This document shows positions 27,130 to 30,741 of a DNA stretch of 64,000 bases, in pieces (positions within the stretch are counted from its first letter, which is position 1; every line of letters starts with the position of its first letter). Position numbers and translations under genes: made by a program. This stretch comes from Haloarcula marismortui ATCC 43049 (lineage in GTDB: Archaea; Halobacteriota; Halobacteria; Halobacteriales; Haloarculaceae), in assembly GCF_000011085.1 (NCBI RefSeq), contig NC_006396.1:1798001-1862000 (forward strand). The letters run 5' to 3'. The notes under the pieces are model-generated. The model was given only the letters and a program-made list of their open reading frames with translations. It ran no database searches and was not told the DNA's origin.

Positions 27130-27143
27130 TTAGGCCATCCTAA
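27130..27143. promoter_or_regulatory. Iron box 1 (DtxR/SirR/Idr-type operator)
   Basis: TTAGGCCATCCTAA is a perfect 5-base inverted repeat, TTAGG-N4-CCTAA, of the kind bound by DtxR-family iron regulators such as the haloarchaeal Idr/SirR proteins. It lies about 14 bases upstream of the TATA box. The operon downstream ends with a DtxR-type regulator, so autoregulation is plausible. Confidence 0.6.
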
Positions 27144-27156
27144 AAACCACAGACGT

Positions 27157-27165
27157 TTTATATTG
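27157..27165 (+). promoter_or_regulatory. TATA box of the iron-box operon
   Basis: TTTATATTG between the two iron boxes lies 20-28 bases before the ATG at 27185, the spacing for a leaderless transcript. Confidence 0.55.
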
Positions 27166-27179
27166 TTAGGTAGCCCTAA
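27166..27179. promoter_or_regulatory. Iron box 2 (DtxR/SirR/Idr-type operator)
   Basis: TTAGGTAGCCCTAA is a second perfect TTAGG-N4-CCTAA palindrome, centred 36 bases from the first. It lies between the TATA box and the expected start site, where a bound repressor would block transcription. The first box lies upstream of the TATA box. Confidence 0.65.
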
Positions 27180-27184
27180 ATCAT

Positions 27185-27436
27185 ATGGCAGACGACGGTA
27201 CTGAGTGCGGGGCACAAACGGGGGAAGACCCACGCAAGGAACGATGGCGGGACGCTTCGTATTGTCCAGACCCATCGACACCGTCTGCGTGGTGCCAACA
27301 TATACCGCGAGCGATATCCCGAGGTCCCACCGACGAGCTGTTGCTCGCCCGCCCGTGCTCTGCCGGAACCATGGGGGGCGTCTGCCTAATGGGTGGCAAT
27401 GGTGGTGGGGCTGGGGGGGAGCCAAACGATGAATGA
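27185..27436 (+). CDS. Small Cys-containing hypothetical protein, first gene of iron-box operon
   Basis: An 83-residue frame with five Cys residues and a Gly-rich tail (MGGVCLMGGNGGGAGGEPNDE). The codon third positions are not as GC-rich as those of neighbours, so it is only a candidate. In its favour are a TATA box and two iron boxes directly upstream and an 8-base overlap with the following frame. It matches no family I know. Another frame over the same DNA (27205-27432) is less likely because it lacks the overlap. Confidence 0.4.
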   Translation: MADDGTECGAQTGEDPRKERWRDASYCPDPSTPSAWCQHIPRAISRGPTDELLLARPCSAGTMGGVCLMGGNGGGAGGEPNDE

Positions 27437-27578
27437 ACGCCCGCAACGGTCGCGCGCTCGACTGTGGGCATGGGCCTACGCGGTGGTCTTCGAGGCCGGT
27501 AAGCGGTCGACAGGGGAGCTGACGACCGATACGCCCACAGCAAACCACGGGGACGGAACGGATTCGTCGGAGCGATGA
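27429..27578 (+). CDS. Small basic hypothetical protein
   Basis: A 49-residue frame (MNERPQRSRARLWAWAYAVVFEAGK...) with a basic N-terminus, an aromatic short hydrophobic stretch and an acidic Thr-rich tail. It overlaps the previous frame by 8 bases and the DtxR-type regulator gene by 4 bases (ATGA), so it fits an operon of coupled small genes. No function can be suggested. Confidence 0.45.
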   Translation: MNERPQRSRARLWAWAYAVVFEAGKRSTGELTTDTPTANHGDGTDSSER

Positions 27579-27994
27579 GCACGGCACCGGAGTACCTGTT
27601 GGCGATCTATATCGCACAGCACCGGAGCGAACCGCCTGTTTCGCCGGGGGAGTTGGGAGAGATGCTCGACCGGTCTCCGGCAGCGGTGACGGAGATGTGT
27701 CAGCGACTTTCGGAAGACGGTCTCGTGTCCTACAAGCCCTACGACGGGGTGACACTGACCGAACCGGGACGCGAGAAAGCCGCGGAGTTGCACGAGACGT
27801 ACGTGACCGTCTCGTGGTTCTTTCGGGGTGTGCTGGACCTCGACGACCACGAGACAGAAGCGATGGAGCTGGCCGGTCTAGTCAGTCCGATAGTTGCCAA
27901 GCGGCTGGCGGCCACACTGCCCTGTGACGCCGGGGAAAGTACACGGGGGCTCGCCGATTCAAACACGACGGCCTCCGATAGAGACACTGTTTGA
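27575..27994 (+). CDS. Short DtxR/MntR-family metal-dependent regulator
   Basis: A 139-residue regulator. The N-terminal winged helix (STAPEYLLAIYIAQ, then SPGELGEMLDRSPAAVTEMCQRLSEDGLVSYKPYDGVTLTEPGREKA) matches the DtxR family, followed by part of the metal-binding dimerisation domain (HETEAMELAGLVSPIVAKRLAATLPC). The C-terminal SH3-like domain is absent, and the last 25 residues are low-complexity, so it is about 80 residues shorter than classical DtxR. It probably senses Fe(II) or Mn(II). It is the last gene after two iron boxes, so it likely controls its own operon. Archaeal Idr/SirR proteins are the likely relatives. Confidence 0.82.
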   Translation: MSTAPEYLLAIYIAQHRSEPPVSPGELGEMLDRSPAAVTEMCQRLSEDGLVSYKPYDGVTLTEPGREKAAELHETYVTVSWFFRGVLDLDDHETEAMELAGLVSPIVAKRLAATLPCDAGESTRGLADSNTTASDRDTV

Positions 27995-28055
27995 GGGGCT
28001 ATATCGATCAAGACCTGTTTTAGGCGGTGCGAAAAAGTAACAGAAGAAGTATAGT

Positions 28056-28114
28056 AAAATTTCGCATAGCCAAAATTCGGGATTTTGAAGGCCTAAAATT
28101 CGGTATTTCAGGCC
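28056..28114. repeat. Imperfect direct repeats upstream of the NifU-domain gene
   Basis: The units AAAATTCGGGATTTTGAAGG plus CC (28072-28093) and AAAATTCGGTATTTCAGGCC (28095-28114) are near-identical and adjacent, and a third degenerate unit AAAATTTCGCATAGCC starts at 28056. They lie 50-110 bases before the start of the NifU-domain gene, upstream of its TATA region, so they may be operator sites. They are markedly AT-rich compared with the genome. Confidence 0.5.
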
Positions 28115-28163
28115 CTCCAAAAACACTAGATTTATGATATGATGGTGCGTAGGTAGAACTGTC

Positions 28164-28490
28164 ATGAGCGTAGAAGGACTCGAACGACAGACGCGTAACT
28201 ACTTGAGCAATAACGTCCCGCAGATCCAGCAACACGGCGGCAACTTCGAGGTCCGCGAGGTCGACGAGAGCAAAGGCACGGCTACCGTCGCTATCGGCGG
28301 CGCGTGTTCGGGATGTGGCATCGCTCCGATGACGATGAAGGCAATCGAGCAGCGACTCCCCGAGAGTGTCGACGGGCTCGAAGATGTCGAAGTCGTCCGC
28401 TCCGGCGGGCCGCGCGCCGCGGTCATGCCCTCGAAGACCGACGATATGGAGGAGATGGACGAGTACGAAGATTACAGCCCGCCGTTCTGA
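28164..28490 (+). CDS. NifU C-terminal domain Fe-S scaffold protein
   Basis: A 108-residue protein consisting of one NifU C-terminal (Nfu) domain. GGACSGCGIAPMTMKAIEQRL supplies the CxxC that binds a 4Fe-4S cluster between two monomers for delivery to apo-proteins. The acidic C-terminal tail (DDMEEMDEYEDYSPPF) is haloarchaeal. A TATA-like TTTATGAT at 28131-28138 lies 26-33 bases before the ATG. It follows an iron-regulator operon, in line with a role in iron and Fe-S homeostasis, but is a separate transcript. Confidence 0.88.
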   Translation: MSVEGLERQTRNYLSNNVPQIQQHGGNFEVREVDESKGTATVAIGGACSGCGIAPMTMKAIEQRLPESVDGLEDVEVVRSGGPRAAVMPSKTDDMEEMDEYEDYSPPF

Positions 28491-28791: not shown

Positions 28792-30741
28792 ATGCCTTAT
28801 GACGCAGATACCGATGCGAGTACAGTATCGCGACGGCGCGTCCTCAAGACGGCGGGCGCGTCGGCGGTGGTGGCGTTCGCCGGCTGCAACGCCGGAAGCG
28901 ACGGAGCGGAGCAGGGTGAAAGCGGGGGCGAGCAGAGCCTCGACCCAGTTCGGGAACGGGCGGAGGTTGCCGTCGACGACATCCAAGAGGGCGGGACACT
29001 CAGGTTCGGCCTCGGAGCGGGTATCGACTCCTTCGACCCGTCTTACAGCACCAGTGCGCCGGCCGGGAACGTCCACGGACTCGTCTACGAGGGCCTCATC
29101 ACACAGGACGCTGCGGGGACCGTGTACCCGTGGCTCGCGCGGACGTGGGAACGGGTAGAGGTCCAAGAGGTCGAAGACGGAGCCTACGAGCCGTACATGG
29201 TGTCGGCGGAGACGGACGACGAGGGGAACCTCGTCGCCGACGACCAGATCATCATCAGGAACCCTGACGCCGGCGAGGTGCTGACGGTCAACGAAGCGCC
29301 GGACGCGGTTGAAGACGGCACCTATGGAATTCAGTACCAAGCCGAACTCCACGAGGGCGTCACCTTCCACAACGGCGAGGAAATGACCGCAGAGCACGTC
29401 GCCCGCTCGTATGAGGTGCTTGAGAACTCCGCGATTTCGGCCCAGACCTTCGACTCGTTCCTCTACGCCGAGGCTGTCGATGACTACACCGTCAACATCT
29501 ACGGGCAGGAGCCAGACGCCGAGGCCGACAGTCAACTCCCACCGACGGTGTACCCCATGGCGCACATCGAGGACTACCCCGATACCGCCGCGGACCCGCG
29601 CAACGACCTGACGCCTATCGGGACCGGTCCCTTCGAGTTCGAGTCCTACGAGGCCGAACAGCGCGCCCAGTTCAGCACGTTCGACGACTACTGGCTGGAC
29701 GACCTCGGCCTCGACGCGCTGGAGTGGTGGGACGGCCCAGAGGGGTTCCCGACGAGCCCAGTCGTCGACGATGTCACGGTCTCCATCGTTACCGACGACG
29801 CGACCCGTGCGGCCGCGCTCAACAACAACGAGATAGACCTCACCTATGGCCTCACGAGCGACACCTACAGCGAGTACCGGAGTTCGGAGGAGTACCGGCT
29901 CAGCGTGACCAACGCCGGGGCGTACAATTTCCTGCAGTACCCTGTCACGGTCTCGCCGTGGGACGACCCCCGCATCCGCCGGGGGGTCAATCAGTTGATT
30001 CCACGCGCCCAGATCGCCGAGAATATCTATAACGGGTACCGGAATCCGGCCTACACGCCACTGCCAGAGTTGGCCGCTGCGGAAGGGTCGGCCGACTACG
30101 ACGCGCTGGTGGAGGAACTGCGCCCGGAGACCGAACAGAACACCGAGGCCGCGACCGAACTGCTAGGGGAGGCCGTCGACGACCTCGGCGTCGAGACACC
30201 AATCGAGGCGACCATCGAGACCAACACCTCCGACGACCGGGTGCGCGAGGCCGAACTCATCGCCCAGGTGATGAGCAACACGGAGTTTTTCGACATCAGC
30301 GTCGAGACCTTCGAGTTCACGACGTTCGTCCAGCGCATCCTCGGCCCGGAGTACTACCAGCAGGGCAACATCGTCCTCATCGGCCTCTCGGGGACGTTCA
30401 ACCCCGGGAGCTTCTACGACGCCGTCAACTCCATCGACAACTTCGGCCAGTGCTGTAACTTCCAGCGGGTCGATACGCCCGATCTCGACGAGATCGCAAC
30501 GGAAGCGCGGTTCTCGGTCGAGGCCGTCGAGGACCCCGCGTTCCGCGGGGAACAGTACGACCAGGTGTGGCGCGGACTCATCGAGCAGGCCCCGAACAGC
30601 TACACCGTCTTCGGAACGAACGTCTCGTCGCTGTCAACCGACTACGTCGGGCACAACACGTACACGTTCTCGGGCGGGATTCTCCCCTACGGACTGCACG
30701 ACCCGACGGACCAGCAGGTCGCGTATCTGGACCGGGAGTGA
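28792..30741 (+). CDS. ABC transporter substrate-binding lipoprotein (peptide/nickel type, SBP_bac_5)
   Basis: A 649-residue extracellular solute receptor for a peptide or nickel-type ABC importer. A Tat signal (SRRRVLK) runs into a lipobox ending at Cys32, so it is exported folded and lipid-anchored. The SBP_bac_5 core is visible in LRFGLGAGIDSFDPS, VHGLVYEGLI, YQAELHEGVTFHNGEEMTAEHVARSYE, IGTGPFEFESYE and the final segment. It is longer than bacterial DppA because of acidic insertions. The permease and ATPase genes follow directly with short spacers, forming one operon. The substrate could be an oligopeptide, but other solutes are known for this family. Confidence 0.93.
   Translation: MPYDADTDASTVSRRRVLKTAGASAVVAFAGCNAGSDGAEQGESGGEQSLDPVRERAEVAVDDIQEGGTLRFGLGAGIDSFDPSYSTSAPAGNVHGLVYEGLITQDAAGTVYPWLARTWERVEVQEVEDGAYEPYMVSAETDDEGNLVADDQIIIRNPDAGEVLTVNEAPDAVEDGTYGIQYQAELHEGVTFHNGEEMTAEHVARSYEVLENSAISAQTFDSFLYAEAVDDYTVNIYGQEPDAEADSQLPPTVYPMAHIEDYPDTAADPRNDLTPIGTGPFEFESYEAEQRAQFSTFDDYWLDDLGLDALEWWDGPEGFPTSPVVDDVTVSIVTDDATRAAALNNNEIDLTYGLTSDTYSEYRSSEEYRLSVTNAGAYNFLQYPVTVSPWDDPRIRRGVNQLIPRAQIAENIYNGYRNPAYTPLPELAAAEGSADYDALVEELRPETEQNTEAATELLGEAVDDLGVETPIEATIETNTSDDRVREAELIAQVMSNTEFFDISVETFEFTTFVQRILGPEYYQQGNIVLIGLSGTFNPGSFYDAVNSIDNFGQCCNFQRVDTPDLDEIATEARFSVEAVEDPAFRGEQYDQVWRGLIEQAPNSYTVFGTNVSSLSTDYVGHNTYTFSGGILPYGLHDPTDQQVAYLDRE

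Follow-up and report, generated by a model that had tools for sequence, protein, structure and literature searches.

A DtxR-family regulator lacking the canonical metal ligands in a predicted iron-responsive operon of Haloarcula marismortui

DtxR-family regulators are textbook metal-activated repressors. A short gene of this family, lying behind a promoter with two perfect iron boxes, raises the question of whether its product senses iron at its own promoter or is itself one of the products that iron controls. Here, we address this question for DtxR', encoded within a 64,000-nucleotide stretch of the Haloarcula marismortui genome (the window). On balance, though by no means firmly, we favor a reading in which DtxR' is a metal-blind DtxR paralog, induced by iron starvation and acting back on the iron regulon, with the repressor bound at the boxes being encoded elsewhere.

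Iron box 1 (TTAGGCCATCCTAA, 27130-27143) lies 5' of the TATA element (TTTTATATT, 27156-27164 on the forward strand), while iron box 2 (TTAGGTAGCCCTAA, 27166-27179) occupies the interval between the TATA element and the start codon, such that the element is flanked on both sides. Both boxes are exact palindromes at the positions claimed in a preliminary description of this DNA; the TATA element reported there is also present, within a base of the proposed 27157-27165. Taking the ATG of the first reading frame (ORF1) at 27185 as +1, box 1 spans -55 to -42, the TATA element -29 to -21 and box 2 -19 to -6, and the boxes thus bracket the place of the archaeal initiation complex. In the whole window they are the only matches to TTAGG-N4-CCTAA without mismatches, and they stand 36 bp apart. 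When up to two mismatches are allowed, the pattern occurs in the window no more frequently than expected by chance, and it is the perfect pair alone that is exceptional. Genome-wide, boxes paired at 35-36 bp with at most two mismatches occur at six places, of which only the DtxR' operon has a pair with none.

This arrangement is closely maintained within the genus, where the nearest named relatives of the window belong to Haloarcula amylolytica, mannanilytica, sebkhae, argentinensis, japonica and vallismortis. Among the orthologous Haloarcula loci that carry boxes, all 13 promoters possess two perfect boxes spaced at 35-36 bp with a TATA element between them, and in all 13 the ATG lies exactly 5 nt 3' of box 2. 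The element itself is TTTTATATT in 11 promoters, the variants TTATATATT and TTTTGTATC making up the remainder. Outside Haloarcula, one or two boxes are found 4-5 nt 5' of the start codon in most cases, and in several Halorubrum species the DtxR' start itself directly follows a box.

Perfect TTAGG-N4-CCTAA sites number 17 in the whole genome against none for a reversed-pattern control, which rules out chance occurrence. We read the genes in stretches around box sites and scanned ten adjoining proteins for domains. Five proved to be Peripla_BP_2 siderophore-binding lipoproteins; also present were an SBP_bac_8 solute-binding protein, a PAS histidine kinase, a DUF5059/plastocyanin-like protein and two oxidoreductases, one of the FAD and one of the GMC type. 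As the boxes are common to the DtxR' operon and to many siderophore-binding-protein genes, we take them to define a haloarchaeal iron regulon of which the operon is a member, its promoter carrying the TTAGGNNNNCCTAA operator shared with iron-uptake genes. The same sequence has been put forward as the 14-bp consensus for one dimer of IdeR/DtxR (PMC8464063). A predicted DtxR-family signal ('ferR') accompanies the fhu genes of Haloferax, where several FhuD paralogs increase under iron starvation (PMC11349517). That the operon would be under iron-responsive control is strongly supported at the level of sequence.

DtxR' (139 aa; 27575-27994, forward strand) is clearly a protein of the DtxR fold. 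Its N-terminal region scores 53.4 bits against the Fe_dep_repress winged helix-turn-helix (HTH) model PF01325 (cut-off 26), a domain found at E <= 1 in all 38 DtxR' homologs, whereas the metal-binding and dimerization domain PF02742 reaches only 14.1 bits, below its cut-off of 27. An AF2 model (pLDDT 86, pTM 0.74) has the three-dimensional fold of DtxR/MntR: the listed PDB matches are DtxR, MntR and IdeR with TM scores of about 0.60-0.70, and the best PDB match by sequence is 8pvt. The model also bears out the claimed absence of a C-terminal SH3-like domain, the last 20 residues being of low confidence and without regular structure. Within Haloarcula the gene has a dN/dS of 0.07, and the HTH and wing are strongly conserved among homologs.

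The metal site tells a different story from the fold. Aligned to a canonical paralog, the ligand positions of DtxR' are occupied by E6, Y76, S80, M97, A100 and G101. The primary site (D8/M10, C102 or E99, E105/E102, H106/H103) is retained by none of the 38 homologs and reads E6, M97, A100 and G101 in DtxR'. At the ancillary site (H79, E83, H98), the first two positions are Y76 and S80, and H98 falls in a gap beside the variable H92. The replacements are themselves shared, with Y76 present in 37 of the 38 homologs, G101 in 34, S80 in 31, M97 in 30 and A100 in 28; ligand loss is therefore ancestral and fixed rather than a sign of decay. With the DtxR metal-binding residues gone, DtxR' is probably a regulated product, made in iron starvation, rather than the iron sensor. 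It could nevertheless bind another ligand, or metal at an unforeseen site involving the conserved E93, E95 and M97.

Which protein, then, reads the boxes? One suggestion is that DtxR' represses its own operon as a short sensor of the Idr/SirR/MntR type, occupying the boxes when loaded with Fe(II). It has the family's HTH and fold, its gene adjoins boxes in many genera, and MntR-type proteins likewise do without an SH3 domain. Against this, the positions of H79, E83, C102, E105 and H106 are Y, S, M, A and G in the clade, and boxes are enriched, at 6-19 per genome, in complete Haloarcula genomes that lack DtxR' altogether, from which it follows that another protein reads them. A ligand-complete candidate also exists: a canonical DtxR paralog of 236 aa, encoded at another locus of the genome (G000:C8:436614), has D, H, E, E and H at the MntR/DtxR ligand positions. 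Its recognition helix, TAPTVTS, keeps the PT of IdeR (SGPTVSQ), where DtxR' has SPAAVTE; the residues were placed by IdeR recognition-helix numbering, following in part PMC8464063. Self-repression by DtxR' is accordingly a decidedly improbable account. Of the new iron-responsive system proposed in the preliminary description, the iron context stands, given the boxes shared with uptake genes, but the casting of DtxR' as its iron-responsive regulator is not supported, given the missing ligands and the boxes in genomes without it.

Comparison with known systems places DtxR' in the same light. In Archaeoglobus fulgidus, the archaeal DtxR-family repressor MDR1 likewise has several operators close to the promoter of the operon that encodes it; unlike DtxR', it is metal-dependent and autorepressing. 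MntR of B. subtilis and the MntR-type DR2539 of Deinococcus (PDB 8pvt) resemble DtxR' in being two-domain DtxR-family proteins without SH3, but the MntR ligands D8, H77, E99, E102 and H103 are not conserved in DtxR'. With DtxR/IdeR (C. diphtheriae, M. tuberculosis, S. erythraea), DtxR' shares the winged HTH and dimerization fold and its operon the operator TTAGGNNNNCCTAA (PMC8464063); it differs in lacking the SH3-like domain and both primary and ancillary metal ligands. Idr, SirR and TroR, the haloarchaeal DtxR regulators that PMC11349517 names for Haloferax/Halobacterium, belong to the same family and the same type of iron regulon; DtxR', which forms a separate, ligand-less clade of patchy occurrence, is probably distinct from them. 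The layout had been likened to that of Idr/SirR, and in this the operator logic holds but the remainder of the analogy does not.

That clade is haloarchaeal, being present in 47 of 195 genomes of the order when presence is defined as a match of at least 138 bits; the next scores are about 126 and below, where a second short haloarchaeal paralog with a C-terminal CPDC motif sits. The DtxR' clade is monophyletic and separate from this paralog (support 97/96). In many genomes (e.g., Haloferax and Halorientalis) no box occurs within 700 nt of DtxR' and the gene lies inside other operons; box control of DtxR' is thus common but not universal. When not directly boxed, DtxR' is preceded by DUF7551/DUF7552 and DUF7260 genes, a siderophore-binding protein gene or an FAD oxidoreductase gene, and in other genera a DpsA-type ferritin gene often stands opposite.

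Within the genus, genomes with DtxR' have a median of 21 boxes versus 12 in those without (p = 2e-4, uncorrected for relatedness), linking DtxR' to the size of the regulon, although part of this excess may reflect shared ancestry. The larger box sets would also suit a positive feedback, in which DtxR' acts as an anti-repressor, either forming heterodimers with the canonical DtxR or an Idr-like paralog or competing for boxes without repressing, and so holding the regulon open in starvation. The dimerization helices are conserved without the ligands, and DtxR' would be expected only while the repressor is off; the strongly conserved HTH and wing, however, suggest DNA binding of its own, and we regard an anti-repressor role as rather unlikely. 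A further possibility, one to which we would also assign only a low probability, is that DtxR' is merely iron-regulated and senses a signal other than a divalent metal, or regulates other targets such as the DUF7551/DUF7552-DUF7260 operon or Fe-S genes (e.g., the NifU-like gene downstream). Its linkage to DUF7260/DUF7551/DUF7552 operons in several genera and conserved degenerate boxes 5' of the NifU-like gene are consistent with this, but the linked genes of known function are mostly iron-related.

The two small frames that precede the regulator bear on how DtxR' would be produced. As previously described, ORF1 (83 codons; 27185-27436) and ORF2 (49 aa; 27429-27578), both on the forward strand, are joined by overlaps to the 139-residue DtxR-type gene: ORF1 and ORF2 share 8 nt, and ORF2 and DtxR' share 4 nt as ATGA at 27575-27578. 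The latter is an overlapping stop-start of the ATGA/TGATG kind that marks translationally coupled pairs. A leader-to-DtxR' overlap of 1 or 4 nt was found in 12 of 15 genus-level cases compared with 2.3 expected from shuffled leaders (P = 1.6e-9, a value to be taken as a guide since the representatives share ancestry). Strict coupling was seen for 13 of 14 overlapping pairs assayed in Haloferax and E. coli, nine Haloferax pairs among them (PMC6728339).

Neither small product matches a Pfam or NCBIfam model, in agreement with the earlier statement that they have no family, but the two differ in conservation. In Haloarcula relatives ORF1 comprises 13 (in Haloarcula mannanilytica), 67, 68, 81, 83 or 85 codons, or 128 when fused to ORF2, with shifted frames, and its dN/dS is 0.55; other genera have unrelated leaders of 11-68 codons at the same position. 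Despite this drift, the start position and an overlap of 1 or 4 nt with the regulator gene are kept; the amino-acid sequence is not. ORF1 is not conserved as a protein and, in the best explanation, would act mainly as a coupling leader. Its start is probably leaderless, as are 72% of protein-coding transcripts in Haloferax (PMC4983044). Such leader cistrons may offer a clean natural example of selection acting on start position and stop-start overlap rather than on the encoded peptide. Two other identities for ORF1 were considered: a conserved Cys-rich iron protein, rejected as both cysteines and frame are lost in relatives, and a remnant of the DUF7260 gene found 5' of DtxR' elsewhere, which is not supported, as no likeness could be seen by eye. 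Three intact DUF7260 genes are present elsewhere in the H. marismortui genome.

ORF2, conversely, has a dN/dS of 0.47 in its own frame against 0.94 and 1.54 in the remaining frames, and carries the motif PQRxRAxxWAWxYxxVF followed by a Ser/Thr/acidic tail. A motif scan of genomes revealed homologs of about 50 aa (PRRxRAxxWAWxYxxLFG, then an acidic tail) directly 5' of DtxR' in Haloarcula, Halovenus, Halorubrum, Halopenitus, Halorarius and Natronorubrum. Judged by such comparisons, ORF2 is a real small-protein family, absent from Pfam and NCBIfam. The preliminary description had asked whether the small frames are conserved and had named frame-disrupting changes in relatives as a sign against its reading: ORF2 is conserved beyond the genus, but ORF1 shows exactly such changes. 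A new small iron system in which both frames encode functional peptides would accord with the conservation of ORF2 across genera, yet the drifting frame of ORF1, reduced to 13 codons in one species, and the unrelated leaders that replace it in other genera make this very improbable. It is tempting to speculate that DtxR' and ORF2 form a two-part metal-blind switch, in which ORF2, its amount tied to that of DtxR' by coupling, would bind either DtxR' or the canonical DtxR and set its DNA binding. We consider this unlikely; were it true, the effector of a DtxR-family regulator would be the translation of a tiny basic-hydrophobic protein instead of metal.

Returning to the reading we favor, in which DtxR' is induced by iron starvation, the following sequence of events can be envisaged. 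Under iron-replete conditions, a metal-loaded repressor of the DtxR family, for which the canonical 236-aa paralog is the best candidate, would occupy both boxes on either side of the TATA element and block the promoter. As iron falls the repressor would leave, permitting transcription of a leaderless mRNA from the ORF1 ATG or an adjoining position. Ribosomes entering at ORF1 would then reach ORF2 and DtxR' by termination-reinitiation at the overlapping stop and start codons. DtxR', its DtxR metal site being unusable, most likely binds DNA independently of metal; produced solely in iron starvation, it would occupy the same or related operators and adjust the starvation response, damping being likelier than activation. 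A haloarchaeal clade that has kept the DNA-binding half of the protein, lost the metal half and become wired to the iron regulon through operators of its own points to a second tier of archaeal iron control, one independent of metal.

Several further observations concern the window and the regulon at large. The NifU-like gene (Fe-S scaffold domain; 27995-28490), 3' of DtxR', is preceded by degenerate boxes at positions -144 and -56 relative to its ATG, the best being TTAGGTATGCCAAA with one mismatch; their positions are kept in the four Haloarcula loci compared, and the gene is possibly a weak regulon member. A Tat-type solute-binding protein of the SBP_bac_5 family, most similar to NikA/oligopeptide binding proteins, is encoded at 28792-30741 without an iron box, and a permease gene follows. 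Elsewhere, two perfect boxes flank the gene for a DUF5059 protein of 823 aa that has a plastocyanin-type copper domain (L041, G000:C8:1703801 and 1706343), which suggests a copper protein within the iron regulon. The boxed PAS histidine kinase (L040, G000:C8:1326063) starts 2 nt 3' of a perfect box and at its N terminus weakly matches DUF7551 (25 bits, cut-off 53), a domain also encoded in DtxR' operons elsewhere.

The operons of the latter kind follow a conserved haloarchaeal order, DUF7551/DUF7552 - DUF7260 - (ORF2) - DtxR' (L110, L104, L091 and L128). No mention of DUF7551, DUF7552 or DUF7260 was found in the literature searched; the DUF7260 proteins have a terminal motif of the CxxCQRxVRDHLVRR type. 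In one Haloarcula genome (L025, G017:C1:757091-757506) DtxR' is frameshifted and both boxes are still perfect, a natural loss of the regulator. Finally, the second short DtxR paralog of H. marismortui (L002, G000:C8:1624578-1624928) is near-universal in the order and has lost most canonical ligands; its C-terminal CPDCF...C motif may constitute a metal site of its own.
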